Shown here in pieces: positions 4,052 through 35,667 of a stretch of DNA of 35,667 nt. The translations under genes and the position numbers were made by a program. How positions within the stretch are numbered: the stretch's first letter is position 1; each line of letters starts with the position of its first letter. The stretch spans positions 1 to 35,667 of the forward strand of contig JAHFAK010000009.1 in assembly GCA_023250585.1 (NCBI GenBank). Direction: 5' to 3'. This stretch comes from Deltaproteobacteria bacterium (GTDB taxonomy: Bacteria; Bdellovibrionota_F; JAHFAK01). The notes under the pieces were generated by a model. It saw only the letters and a list, made by a program, of their open reading frames with translations, was not told where the DNA came from and searched no databases.

Positions 4052-4173
4052 AAAAGGCAATCAAAAGGTGGGGACCGACATGTGAGCTCATTTAGTAGGA
4101 GGCATTTTATTATCACATATTGATGCCTGCTCAATGCGTTCATATGTCGGTCCCCACCTTTTGATTGCCTTTT
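4052..4173. repeat. Long perfect inverted repeat, 30-bp arms, upstream of trxB
   Basis: Arms 4052-4081 and 4144-4173 are exact reverse complements over 30 bp and enclose 62 nt, within which GAGGCAT and ATGCCTGCTC can form a nested stem. The right arm ends in a T run followed directly by AAGGAG, the trxB ribosome-binding site. It could serve as a terminator for the retropepsin gene or a 5' structure controlling trxB. The left arm is preceded by a tandem duplication of CAATCAAAAGG (4047-4068). No flanking direct repeat was seen. Confidence 0.9.
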
Positions 4174-5127: not shown

Positions 5128-5254
5128 CCGAAACGTGCCCGGCAACTTTCGGTCCATTTTCCGACCAAATGGTACCCTCACTTTACCCCATCTTTTACAT
5201 ATGGGTGTACCTTTTGGTCGATTTTTCGACCGAAAGTTGCCGGGCACGTTTCGG
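5128..5254. repeat. Long perfect inverted repeat, 27-bp arms, between convergent genes
   Basis: Arms 5128-5154 and 5228-5254 are exact reverse complements over 27 bp. The enclosed 73 nt has a second, imperfect tier (CGACCAAA-GGTACCC against GGGT-TACC-TTTGGTCG). It starts one base after the trxB stop and ends two bases before the stop of the opposite-strand lipoprotein gene, so a two-way terminator is plausible. Its sequence is unrelated to the other hairpins here. Confidence 0.9.
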
Positions 5255-13456: not shown

Positions 13457-13486
13457 ACGATGTATCCTCATTAAATCTTACCGTAC

Positions 13487-13644
13487 GTAACAGCTCAGTT
13501 AATGGGGGAGTAAGGGAGTAGGAATGTTCTCACAAAGAATTTCTATCGACGTCGCTTCCATAATACTATTAAGAACGGGGTAAGCGCGCTCGATAGAAAT
13601 TCTTTGTGAGAACATTCCTACTCCCTTATAACTGATGGATTACT
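13487..13644 (+). mobile_element. Foldback MITE-like element, family 1, copy 1
   Basis: Core arms 13512-13549 and 13590-13627 are exact 38-bp reverse complements around a 40-nt core (13550-13589). Outer tiers GTAA/TTAC and TCAGTTA/TAACTGA extend the pairing to the ends. Flanking 7-mers ACCGTAC (13480-13486) and ACAGTAC (13645-13651) match at six of seven bases, as expected of an aged target-site duplication. No coding capacity. Confidence 0.85.
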
Positions 13645-13661
13645 ACAGTACATACCGCCTC

Positions 13662-18664: not shown

Positions 18665-19021
18665 ATGGCAACTATACGTATCAATGATCTCAGAACAGAA
18701 TCTATTATTGGTATTCATAAACATGAACGAAAGAAAAAGCAGCCGCTCATCATAAATATTACATGTACGTATAATTCAACAAAATCTGAAAGAACTGATA
18801 CTATTACCGATGCTGTTGATTACGATACACTCACAAAAAAAATTCTTGCCCATGTTTCAGCATCGCACTATTTTCTTATTGAACGTCTGGCTTCATCTAT
18901 TTTAGAAATTGTTATGGAAAATAAAAAAATAAAAGAAGCAACCGTCCATCTCCATAAACCCCAAGCAATTAAAGAGGCTCGATCAGTGTCAATTGAGCTT
19001 CATGCACAGAGATCACGATGA
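18665..19021 (+). CDS. folB: Dihydroneopterin aldolase family protein
   Basis: 118 residues. It should convert 7,8-dihydroneopterin to 6-hydroxymethyl-dihydropterin and glycolaldehyde. Family features seen: RINDLRTESIIGIHKHER with the active-site glutamate, the AVDYDTLTKKI motif, ERLASSILEIV and the C-terminal HKPQAIKEA holding the conserved lysine. Directly after folE and overlapping the next gene by ATGA, so it is in the middle of a tight operon. Confidence 0.93.
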   Translation: MATIRINDLRTESIIGIHKHERKKKQPLIINITCTYNSTKSERTDTITDAVDYDTLTKKILAHVSASHYFLIERLASSILEIVMENKKIKEATVHLHKPQAIKEARSVSIELHAQRSR

Positions 19022-19962
19022 AATCCTGTGATGTCGGTGTTATTGGAAGTGGGGTAGCAGGAATTTCTGCGCTTATCTGGCTTAAACGGCTCGGCTTGCA
19101 TGCAGTTATGTTCGAAAAAAATTCTTCAATTGGTGGGCAATTAATCAATGTTCATAATCGCATTATCGATTACCCTGCGTTGTATGGTCTTACGGGTAAT
19201 GAAATGATTACACAACTAACAAGCCATCTTGAAGCTTTACAATGTGAGTGGCAAACAAATGTGCATGTTCTTTCGCTTGATACTGAAAAAGAACACGTTA
19301 TACTCAAGCTTTCACGAAACTCAGGAACTACTGAAATGATTTCCTCGCGTTATGTAATTATAGCAACAGGAGCACAAGAACAAAAATTATCTATCCCCGG
19401 AGAAGATAAGCTCGATCTCTATCAGGGAAGCCTTTCAACATCTAAAGATATTTCGGTATTTAAGAATAAAAAAGTTATTATTATCGGCGGTGGAGATAGA
19501 GCATGTATTGGAGCCAATAGAATTAAAGACATTGCCCAAGAAGTTATTCTCATTCATCGACGAGCTAGTCTTACTGGACGCAAAGAATTGATAGATCCCC
19601 TCTTACAAAGTTCTCGTATAACCATTAAACCTCATTCAGTAGTGACTGAAATTATATGGAAAAATAAAAAAATTGAATTGGTAAAAATTAAAGATCTATC
19701 AAATCAAAAAGAAGTCATGATCCAAGCTGATATTGTATTAATTAGGATTGGAATAGAGCCAATTCTAGGCCTTCTAAAACAGTATCTTTCAAAAGAAGAT
19801 ACAATAATTCCCACGAATAATTATGGAAAGACACAATTCTCTGATAGGATTTATGCGATTGGAGATGCAAGCCATTCCCCTCACTATTCAAGCATTAGTG
19901 CTTCAGTTGGAGAAGGTATGCTTGCAGCAAAAGATATTTCACTGCACATCAGAAAAGAATGA
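19018..19962 (+). CDS. Thioredoxin-reductase-like flavoprotein without the redox cysteines
   Basis: 314 residues with both dinucleotide-binding sites of the TrxB fold: FAD at GVIGSGVAGISALIWL (8-22) and NAD(P) at IIIGGGDRACIGANRI, plus the C-terminal RIYAIGDAS. At the place where TrxB has CAVC this protein reads STSK (140-143), so it cannot exchange disulphides. Cysteine-less relatives include ferredoxin/flavodoxin-NADP reductases. Its tight coupling to folE-folB (start overlaps the folB stop) suggests a pterin- or folate-linked reductase, which is inference. Its TGA stop lies in the direct repeat flanking the next mobile element. Confidence 0.85.
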   Translation: MKSCDVGVIGSGVAGISALIWLKRLGLHAVMFEKNSSIGGQLINVHNRIIDYPALYGLTGNEMITQLTSHLEALQCEWQTNVHVLSLDTEKEHVILKLSRNSGTTEMISSRYVIIATGAQEQKLSIPGEDKLDLYQGSLSTSKDISVFKNKKVIIIGGGDRACIGANRIKDIAQEVILIHRRASLTGRKELIDPLLQSSRITIKPHSVVTEIIWKNKKIELVKIKDLSNQKEVMIQADIVLIRIGIEPILGLLKQYLSKEDTIIPTNNYGKTQFSDRIYAIGDASHSPHYSSISASVGEGMLAAKDISLHIRKE

Positions 19963-19967
19963 ATGTT

Positions 19968-20124
19968 GAATCCCTCAGTTATTAGGGAGTAGGAATGGTT
20001 CTCACAAAGAATTTCTATCGAGCGCGCTTTCGTGTTCTTAATAGTTTTATGGAAGCGACGTCGATAGAAATTCTTTGTGAGAACCATTCCTACTCCCTTA
20101 CTCCTCCATTAACTAAGCTGTTAC
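19968..20124 (-). mobile_element. Foldback MITE-like element, family 1, copy 2 (opposite orientation)
   Basis: Arms 19984-20021 and 20061-20098 are exact 38-bp reverse complements around a 39-nt core that is the reverse complement of the family core with a few changes. The whole unit is flanked by TGAATGTT on both sides (19960-19967 and 20125-20132), a clean 8-bp duplication. It lies between two convergent stop codons that would be about five bases apart without it. Confidence 0.9.
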
Positions 20125-20131
20125 TGAATGT

Positions 20132-20764
20132 TTATTTCTTTTTATTCATTCGTGTATAGGTCATTGCCATTGTCATGAACTCTTTACCAGCTTCGTCCTT
20201 GGCCCACATGGTATAGGTAAGTTCATCTTTGCCTATCTTAAATTCACTGCGGAACCATTTATCTTGTTCACCAGTCATTGGACAGCTAGCACTTCCACTC
20301 TCTTTTATTGTCTTTGTAGCTGCATCATATTGCCCTGTTGATTTAAAAATACCGGTCATCATGTCATCCATCCAAATTGAATTATACTCTTTCTTTACTT
20401 TATCATAACCACAAAATCCCATGCCTTCGAATTTCTGACCAGCCCAATTGCCTTTGAATTCTTGTTTGATAAAACGTCCACCCAAAACCCAAGACATGGT
20501 GCTTGTGCCTTCGGATTTTTCTTCTGGAGCGCCTGGCTTCATCCATGATTTACTGGTAACTTTCCATTTTCCTACTACATCATTAAATACTGCATGTTCA
20601 GCACCGGGTGTGCCCATTTCTTTCATTTTAGCCATTTGAGCTTGCATCTCGGGAGTCATTTCCATTTTTCCCATGGCTTTTTTGTCAGCTGCATTGACTG
20701 CTGTAGCTAAGAAAATTGCCAGAATTAATCCTTGCATAAGTGTCTGTAATCGTTGTGTCTTCAT
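20132..20764 (-). CDS. Secreted DUF1579-family protein
   Basis: 210 residues. A signal peptide (LQTLMQGLILAIFLATAVNA) is followed by a Met/Lys-rich linker and a beta-rich domain typical of DUF1579: VVGKWKVTSKSWMKPG, TSTMSWVLGGRFIKQEFKG, FEGMGFCGYDKVKKEY, and WFRSEFKIG. Proteins of this type are exported and of unknown biochemical function. GAGGATCAC precedes the ATG. Single gene on the minus strand, convergent to the flavoprotein gene across a mobile element. Confidence 0.88.
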   Translation of the reverse strand: MKTQRLQTLMQGLILAIFLATAVNAADKKAMGKMEMTPEMQAQMAKMKEMGTPGAEHAVFNDVVGKWKVTSKSWMKPGAPEEKSEGTSTMSWVLGGRFIKQEFKGNWAGQKFEGMGFCGYDKVKKEYNSIWMDDMMTGIFKSTGQYDAATKTIKESGSASCPMTGEQDKWFRSEFKIGKDELTYTMWAKDEAGKEFMTMAMTYTRMNKKK

Positions 20765-20894: not shown

Positions 20895-20987
20895 GTACCA
20901 TACTCAGTCGCATTCAAAATGATAACGAAGCGGCGAGGAGCTTCCGATGAAGCCAACGAAGTTAGCGTTTGAATGCGACTGCGTATC
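20895..20987 (-). mobile_element. Foldback MITE-like element, family 2, copy A
   Basis: 14-bp perfect arms CAGTCGCATTCAAA (20905-20918) and its complement (20968-20981), extended outward by ATAC/GTAT after one mismatch. Flanked by AATTGAC at 20888-20894 and 20988-20994, a perfect 7-bp direct repeat. Reverse complemented, the interior matches that of the element at 32982-33107. The right-hand repeat supplies a TTGACT that could be the -35 of ribD. Confidence 0.8.
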
Positions 20988-21029
20988 AATTGACTTCTCA
21001 TCTCACCTGTATTATCAGTTTTAGAAGCT

Positions 21030-28831: not shown

Positions 28832-29083
28832 TCATCTATACACATCTTTGCGATGCTCAACATACACAATATCCACATAATGAGAATCAAAGCGATATAT
28901 AATACGATACGGCCAAACTTTTAATGATCTTAATTTTTCTTTTCCAAAATCGCCTTTTAATTTTTTGCCTAAAAGCGGATCGCCAGTAATTTCAAGAATT
29001 GCTTCTTCCAATCGTTCTTTAGTTTTGGAATTAAATTTGAGCAGTGCCCTCGCTGCGACTTTAGAATATCGTATGGTCTTCAT
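28832..29083 (-). CDS. RelE/ParE-family toxin
   Basis: 83 residues with the compact RelE fold pattern: basic N-terminus KTIRYSKVAARALLKF, a helix KTKERLEEAILEI, then LKGDFGKEKLRSLKVWPYRIIYRF and the closing strand VDIVYVEHRKDVYR, whose arginine and histidine are typical of ribosome-dependent mRNA interferases. Whether it cleaves mRNA or targets gyrase like ParE is not settled by sequence. Its ATG overlaps the antitoxin stop by four bases. Confidence 0.9.
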   Translation of the reverse strand: MKTIRYSKVAARALLKFNSKTKERLEEAILEITGDPLLGKKLKGDFGKEKLRSLKVWPYRIIYRFDSHYVDIVYVEHRKDVYR

Positions 29084-29349
29084 GAACGCTTTTTAAAAAT
29101 TTCGCTATGGCTGACATGCTTACCCGATTTCAATTCTTTTAAACCCTTTTTAATTCCTTTAGCTGTCTTTTGATGTGCCATAATTTCTAAAGTTTCAGCC
29201 CATTCTTCAAATTCATCAGCACTCATTATAACAGCTGTTGCAGTCCCTTTTTTGGTTATAGTGAAAACTTGCCGTAACTTTGAAACTTTGTCTAAGATTT
29301 CAAAAAATATTGAACGTGCATTTGCCGCCGTTACTACACGTGTAGTCAT
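29080..29349 (-). CDS. Phd/YefM-family antitoxin
   Basis: 89 residues. The N-terminal DNA-binding Phd/YefM domain is seen in TTRVVTAANARSIFFEILDKV and TITKKGTATAVIMSADEFEEW; a basic C-terminal tail would wrap the toxin. Start ATG 29349 is five bases after AAGGAG; a longer frame from 29391 has no ribosome site. Overlaps the toxin start by ATGA. Such antitoxins usually repress their own operon, and the promoter would lie between 29349 and the mobile element that starts at 29416. Confidence 0.9.
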   Translation of the reverse strand: MTTRVVTAANARSIFFEILDKVSKLRQVFTITKKGTATAVIMSADEFEEWAETLEIMAHQKTAKGIKKGLKELKSGKHVSHSEIFKKRS

Positions 29350-29415
29350 ATGATCTCCTTTATCTATAATGTACATAATTACGTACATCAAGTCAAGACG
29401 AGTATTTACTCATAT

Positions 29416-29573
29416 GTAATGGCTCAGTTAATGGGAGAGTTAGGGGATAAGCATGTTCCCAAAAAGAATTTCTATCGACGTCGCTTCCATAATACTATTA
29501 AGAACGGGGTAAGCGCGCTCGATAGAAATTCTTTTTGGGAACATGCTTATCCCCTAATAACGGAGGGATTACT
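29416..29573 (+). mobile_element. Foldback MITE-like element, family 1, copy 3
   Basis: Arms 29440-29478 and 29519-29557 are exact 39-bp reverse complements around a 40-nt core (29479-29518) identical to that of copy 1. Ends GTAAT/ATTAC. Flanked by CTCATAT at 29409-29415 and 29574-29580, a perfect 7-bp direct repeat. About seven arm positions differ from copy 1, each matched in the opposite arm. Confidence 0.9.
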
Positions 29574-29589
29574 CTCATATTAAATACGT

Positions 29590-32971: not shown

Positions 32972-32981
32972 ATAAACTATT

Positions 32982-33107
32982 GATACTAAGTTGCATTCAA
33001 ACGCTAACTGCGTTGGCTTCGTCGTCGGCTCCTCAACGTACTCATTACGTACGTTTGCGTCGCCTTCTCCTTGCCGACGTTTATCATTTTGAATGCAACT
33101 TAGTATG
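32982..33107 (+). mobile_element. Foldback MITE-like element, family 2, copy B
   Basis: 19-bp perfect arms, ATACTAAGTTGCATTCAAA (32983-33001) and complement (33088-33106). The inner GCTAACTGCGTTGGCTTCGT and TTATCATTTTGAATGC match the reverse complement of copy A, but the middle is longer and holds its own palindrome around ACGTAC. No clear direct repeat flanks it. It lies directly upstream of der. Confidence 0.75.
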
Positions 33108-33113
33108 AAAACC

Positions 33114-33233
33114 GTAGAGAGGATGTATATGTTCTGTTTTTATTTTGTATCGAGCGCGCTTACCCCGTTCTTAATAGTATTATGGAAGCGACGTCGATAG
33201 AAAATAAAAACAGAACATATACATCCTCTCTAC
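33114..33233 (-). repeat. Family 1 core in a hairpin with unrelated arms (variant element)
   Basis: 40-nt arms 33114-33153 and 33194-33233 pair with a single mismatch. The loop (33154-33193) is the exact reverse complement of the 40-nt core of copies 1 and 3. Beyond the shared TATCGA next to the core, and a short ATGTTCT, the arms do not resemble those of the other copies. No flanking duplication found. It lies seven bases from copy B of family 2, between era and der. Confidence 0.9.
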
Positions 33234-34189: not shown

Positions 34190-34210
34190 GAAGCTTTCAG
34201 ATGTGAAAAT

Positions 34211-34248
34211 AACAGCTCAGTAAATGGGGGAGTTAGGGAGTACATATG
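34211..34248 (+). repeat. Remnant left end of a family 1 foldback element
   Basis: AACAGCTCAGTAAATGGGGG and the following AGTTAGGGAGTACATATG closely match the left end and outer arm of copy 1 (AACAGCTCAGTTAATGGGGG, AGTAAGGGAGTAGGAATG). The core and right arm are missing, so this is a truncated copy. Confidence 0.7.
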
Positions 34249-35470: not shown

Positions 35471-35567
35471 CTTCATTTTTCCCAATAGCTCAGAAGGTGT
35501 GAAAGAATCAAGAGAGAGCTCCATTTTCTGAAAAAGAGCGATAGGAAACTGAAATGTCCAAATCGAC

Positions 35568-35667
35568 TGTCATTGCGAAAACCTGAAGGGTTTGAAGCAA
35601 TCTCTTCTTACATATCCACGATTGCGGAGTTTATCCCGAACCTGCTTGAGATTGCTTCGTCGGACAA
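35568..35667. repeat. Second REP-type repeat running into the window edge
   Basis: TGTCATTGCG and GAAGCAATCTC on the left, GAGATTGCTTCGTC on the right; 11-bp arms (GAAGCAATCTC and complement) about 45 bases apart. Resembles the ATTGCGA-GAAGCAATCTC intergenic repeat common in bacterial genomes. The right end is cut by the window. Confidence 0.7.

Follow-up and report, generated by a model that had tools for sequence, protein, structure and literature searches.

The foldback elements in the 35,667-nucleotide stretch of DNA analyzed here (the window; contig JAHFAK010000009.1 of a Deltaproteobacteria bacterium, assembly GCA_023250585.1) carry flanking duplications that are real and far beyond chance, and the evidence supports their identification as non-autonomous MITEs whose transposase is supplied in trans. 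Taken as a whole, the observations are very probably best explained by a MITE family that is moved by a trans-acting DDE transposase and has a hairpin as its cargo, with template switching between the hairpin arms and with remnants left by slippage.

The elements, mostly 156 to 158 bp long (about 157 bp), have no coding capacity. Their two inverted ends, TIR-A (GTAAYRGCTCAGTTAATGGGGGAGTTAGGG) and TIR-B (GTAATSCYTCAGTTATTAGGG), are unlike but related, with GTAAY..TCAGTTA common to both, and the hairpin between them measures ~117 nt. The hairpin center is almost invariant (GACGTCGCTTCCATAATACTATTAAGAACrGG(n)AAGCGCGCTC), and so is the 3-nt internal mismatch that it contains. With GTAA...TTAC taken as the ends, an 8-bp duplication is seen at all three window copies (Table 1). 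Copy 2 sits in the 8-bp word at the junction of two convergent genes, and both genes are intact because it lies between their stop codons. The DNA fold of the complete copy 3 has a free energy of -54.4 kcal/mol (z -14.4). A gene for a Phd/YefM-type antitoxin (29080-29391) and the left duplication of this copy are 16 bp apart, and a likely partner toxin gene lies downstream.

Table 1. Elements, hairpins, and flanking duplications in the window
Feature	Position	Strand	Remarks
Copy 1, 157-bp MITE	13487..13643	+	TIR-A left, TIR-B right; hairpin 13511-13628
Copy 1, left 8-bp target duplication, TACCGTAC	13479..13486		
Copy 1, right 8-bp target duplication, TACAGTAC	13644..13651		7/8 vs left word
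Copy 2, 157-bp MITE	19968..20124	- (core strand)	Left GTAAT end one base short
Copy 2, left target duplication, TGAATGTT	19960..19967		8/8; holds TGA stop of ORF 19018-19962
Copy 2, right target duplication, TGAATGTT	20125..20132		Last base is first base of convergent stop TTA
Copy 3, 157-bp MITE	29416..29572	+	TIR-A GTAATGGCTCAGTTAATGGGAGAGTTAGGG, TIR-B (reverse) GTAATCCCTCCGTTATTAGGG
Copy 3, left target duplication, ACTCATAT	29408..29415		
Copy 3, right target duplication, TCTCATAT	29573..29580		7/8 vs left word
Copy 3, hairpin cargo	29440..29557	+	47-nt arms, 24-nt loop, asymmetric core GACGTCGCTTCC...AAGCGCGCTC
TIR-less hairpin, group II	33114..33233	-	Same core, different arms, no target duplication
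Remnant, 35 bp	34209..34243	+	TIR-A plus terminal TAC, hairpin lost
Remnant, left duplication, ATGTGAAA	34201..34208		
Remnant, right duplication, ATATGAAA	34244..34251		7/8

Copies were gathered across the host assembly (2.24 Mb in 164 contigs, 96.7% complete) by BLAST, end patterns, and a covariance model; the fetched loci are referred to by L-numbers. The fetched stretches contain at least 78 hairpins with the common core, at least 43 of which are of the TIR type. All 43 TIR-type copies lie outside long open frames, compared with 67% of random window positions falling inside one. For the duplication test, we used the 45 elements in which both ends are recognizable. Perfectly matching 8-mer flanks are found in 19 of the 45 and flanks with no more than one mismatch in 32, whereas pairing each left flank with the right flanks of other copies gives no perfect match and only 0.05% with one mismatch or fewer. 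Only 3 of the 45 match over a 9-mer and none over a 10-mer, and because the matches fall off at these lengths, the duplicated word is 8 bp long, rather than the 7 to 8 bp of the original prediction, which had placed the flanking words of copies 1 to 3 correctly. Its claim that they are the mark of transposase-mediated insertion is borne out statistically, as is the genome-wide excess of flanking repeats that it proposed as a check. The TIR-less hairpin at 33114-33233 and the 35-bp remnant with its own duplication were not among its observations. A local BLAST search of the fetched loci with the joined flanks, looking for empty sites inside other repeats, gave no match spanning a junction elsewhere.

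The elements are thus short and non-coding, end in terminal inverted repeats, and occur in many copies at different sites with a duplication of fixed length, as MITEs do. Like bacterial MITEs moved by IS transposases, they are non-coding, bounded by inverted ends, uniform in length, present in dozens of copies, located between genes, and flanked by 8-bp duplications; what sets the present family apart is that its two ends are unlike, that its long hairpin cargo gives way to an unrelated hairpin in some elements, and that a hairpin body is found in both orientations. Insertion would be the work of a DDE-type transposase acting in trans, which would recognize the ends, make a cut in the target staggered by 8 bp, and insert the element there; repair of the resulting gaps would then produce the observed 8-bp duplication.

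Ends and hairpin are separable in both directions, which shows the hairpin to be a cargo. On the one hand, approximately 35 core hairpins lack these ends (34 in the fetched loci and one in the window), and 33 of 35 are intergenic. These TIR-less hairpins (group II, as opposed to the TIR-type hairpins of group I) show no duplications beyond chance, save for one 10-bp near-repeat at L078. Mobility as judged from duplications, which had been claimed for the foldback elements generally, therefore holds for copies with GTAA ends and not for TIR-less core hairpins, such as the one in the window. On the other hand, the same GTAA ends occur with a GGATCCCG(T/C)GG(T/C)CAAGCC hairpin pair in place of the core in L042, L054, L056, L057, L060, and L062. 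With this unrelated GGATCCCG...GTCAAG hairpin, the elements in L054, L056, L060, and L062 are again 156 to 158 bp long. The one in L056 has a perfect duplication (ATATTTTA, present twice), the flanks agree in 7 of 8 positions in L062 and in only 6 of 8 in L060, and the element in L054 reaches the contig end.

Several other repeats lie close to these elements. A second palindromic family (ATTCAAACGCTAAC...) is represented in the window at 20899-20990 and at 32979-33107, the latter directly beside the TIR-less hairpin, and the region around position 1000 of L052 is a chimera of this ATTCAAACGCTAAC family with the MITE core. A repeat of the form GAGCTC...TTCACACCTTC is found at 35500-35583 of the window and in L010, L019, L024, and L048; in L019 and L024, it abuts damaged MITE ends.

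The absence of a transposase from the window, noted in the original prediction, was confirmed: none of the 29 predicted proteins of about 100 aa or more that were scanned matches a transposase family. A full-length transposon with the same ends, which it had suggested looking for, did not turn up in the 164-contig assembly; every match to both end patterns with up to 3 mismatches was examined in the host genome, and none encloses a transposase gene, which leaves the elements, among bacterial MITEs, with no partner found. An autonomous partner with the same ends is usual for a MITE but not required, and because the assembly is in 164 contigs, a collapsed partner copy may be missing from it.

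Two traits of the family, its GTAA termini and its 8-bp duplication, are also those of the IS66 elements, which have GTAA ends (PMC12888890) and generate 8-bp duplications (PMC3281130). Because of these two traits, we favor an IS66-like enzyme as the likeliest driver, a proposal with about an even chance of being right; the assembly or the lineage would now lack that enzyme. The present elements differ from the IS66 family in having no tnpA, tnpB, or tnpC, and their internal end sequence, CTCAGTTAATGGG (in GTAAY..CTCAGTTAATGGG), was matched here to no IS66 element. The 96.7% complete assembly contains no member of the IS66 TnpC (PF03050), IS66 TnpB (PF05717), or IS256 (PF00872) transposase families; this is weak evidence, because multi-copy insertion sequences often fail to assemble. 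The only other genome of the same class has an IS66 gene, located at a contig end that cuts it off, at which no matching ends were seen. The lack of IS66 genes in the host assembly leaves a smaller, though appreciable, chance that the driver belongs to another family with 8-bp duplications (ISL3, IS1595, IS6, or ISAs1), likewise absent or unassembled. Remains of an IS4-like transposase do adjoin one TIR-A, in L044 (a weak match, E value of 0.0065), but the piece is truncated and is preceded by a different repeat of its own; moreover, the families that make 8-bp duplications, IS66 aside, are mostly not known to have GTAA at their start, which counts against such a driver. The window itself contains two more long inverted repeats that differ in sequence from the elements, with arms of ~50 nt, at 4052-4173 and 5128-5254, and it is a sequence like the latter (GAAACGTGCCCGGC) that precedes the IS4-like remnant in L044.

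A second line of explanation concerns the core hairpin itself, which might be a mobile REP-like element that is moved by a REP-associated tyrosine transposase with no target duplication; the TIR-less hairpin would then be the normal form, and the MITEs would have captured it. The 35 TIR-less copies have no duplications, 33 of them are intergenic, and their stem mismatch is conserved, all of which is shared with REP/BIME palindromes and their RAYTs, and the host genome encodes Y1 transposases, which could move the TIR-less hairpins. One of these (L072, positions 1210-1863; C32, in the host genome) is REP-associated tyrosine transposase-like (RAYT-like), with an E value of 2.4e-19, below the curated cut-off. 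RAYT genes usually sit between their repeats, whereas for 3 of the 4 Y1 matches, the contig yielded no core hairpin. The stems, at ~45 bp, are also far longer than REP stems, and their arms are hypervariable, which makes this origin of the core rather unlikely.

The arms of the hairpin are both variable and paired. Within a copy, 98.6% of the arm pairs are Watson-Crick pairs in both groups, while the outer 17 nt of the arms agree between copies at only 61% in the TIR type and 42% in the TIR-less type. In an alignment of 45 hairpins, 98.1% of the cells pair and 220 cells have changed on both sides, where shuffles give 44 and slid controls 24 to 49. The non-Watson-Crick pairs comprise 2 G-U and 6 A-C pairs in group I and 6 G-U and 5 A-C pairs in group II; since G-U is not enriched over A-C, selection at the RNA level is argued against as the main keeper of the arms. 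Bodies are found in both orientations between the two ends (21 AB and 17 BA), and the hairpin body of L015 is identical over 106 nt to that of one L025 hairpin but is turned the other way around with respect to TIR-A and TIR-B.

Both the paired yet variable arms and the two orientations are best explained by arm copying through template switching. At inverted repeats, this process has two published outcomes, homogenization of the arms and inversion of the spacer, as in the correction of quasipalindromes (PMC8604942); here, they would extend across dozens of repeats and to an inverted body of more than 100 bp. After insertion, a switch of template between the arms during DNA replication would copy one arm onto the other, and it may also invert the hairpin between its ends, an outcome that is seen in the elements. 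The same process should erase mismatches, yet the 3-nt internal mismatch is kept in nearly all copies. Because it survives, template switching alone is incomplete as an explanation, and one has to assume that the core is under selection; retention of the mismatch shows that something protects the core, either selection or its inheritance from masters that depend on it. Arms that were perfect from the birth of each copy, through hairpin-primed synthesis of the second arm and with no repeated correction, would also account for outer arms of TIR-less hairpins that are 42% alike between copies and 98.6% matched within one. We consider this unlikely, as the TIR-type copies are products of transposition, the two unlike arms in L019 and L024 show that arms can differ within one copy, and the published template switching suffices.

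It is very improbable that the flanking words match by chance and that the elements are static palindromes maintained by selection as terminators or RNA structures, in spite of the very stable stems, the strong stem covariation, and the intergenic location, given the 19 perfect matches where the swapped flanks lead one to expect none, the sharp cut-off at 8 bp, the lack of the G-U excess that RNA selection would give, and the absence of any match to Rfam covariance models at gathering scores in the window; for copies with GTAA ends, this reading is refuted.

Five remnants of 30 to 36 bp, one in the window and the others in L027, L043, L046, and L053, retain a single end and are flanked by a duplication with no more than one mismatch. 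The simplest reading is loss of the hairpin by replication slippage, which would delete the hairpin and leave a remnant of this size with the insertion scar. Alternatively, the remnants may stem from insertion of a mini-element.

Outside the host genome, the core pattern had no match in 84,980 genomes or viral contigs or in plasmid and phage records, and the element had none in 97 other genomes; the only other genome of the same class lacks it, also in a search with the RNA model.

The TIR-bearing repeats can be regarded as settled: they are ordinary MITEs of an uncultured lineage. Their useful part is the natural series that they form within one genome, comprising dozens of hairpins whose two arms have changed in concert, bodies that occur either way around, and remnants in which the scar is still intact. 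Such a series provides material to tell the correction of arms by template switching from selection for structure, a distinction that is usually argued from single RNA hairpins. It is improbable that the TIR-less hairpins are independent mobile or functional DNA palindromes in which conservation is limited to the 45-nt asymmetric core with its fixed 3-nt mismatch and the arms, perfectly paired, are rewritten in step, and that transposon ends repeatedly pick these palindromes up as exchangeable cargo. An independent hairpin with rewritten arms would be the most worthwhile part of the finding.
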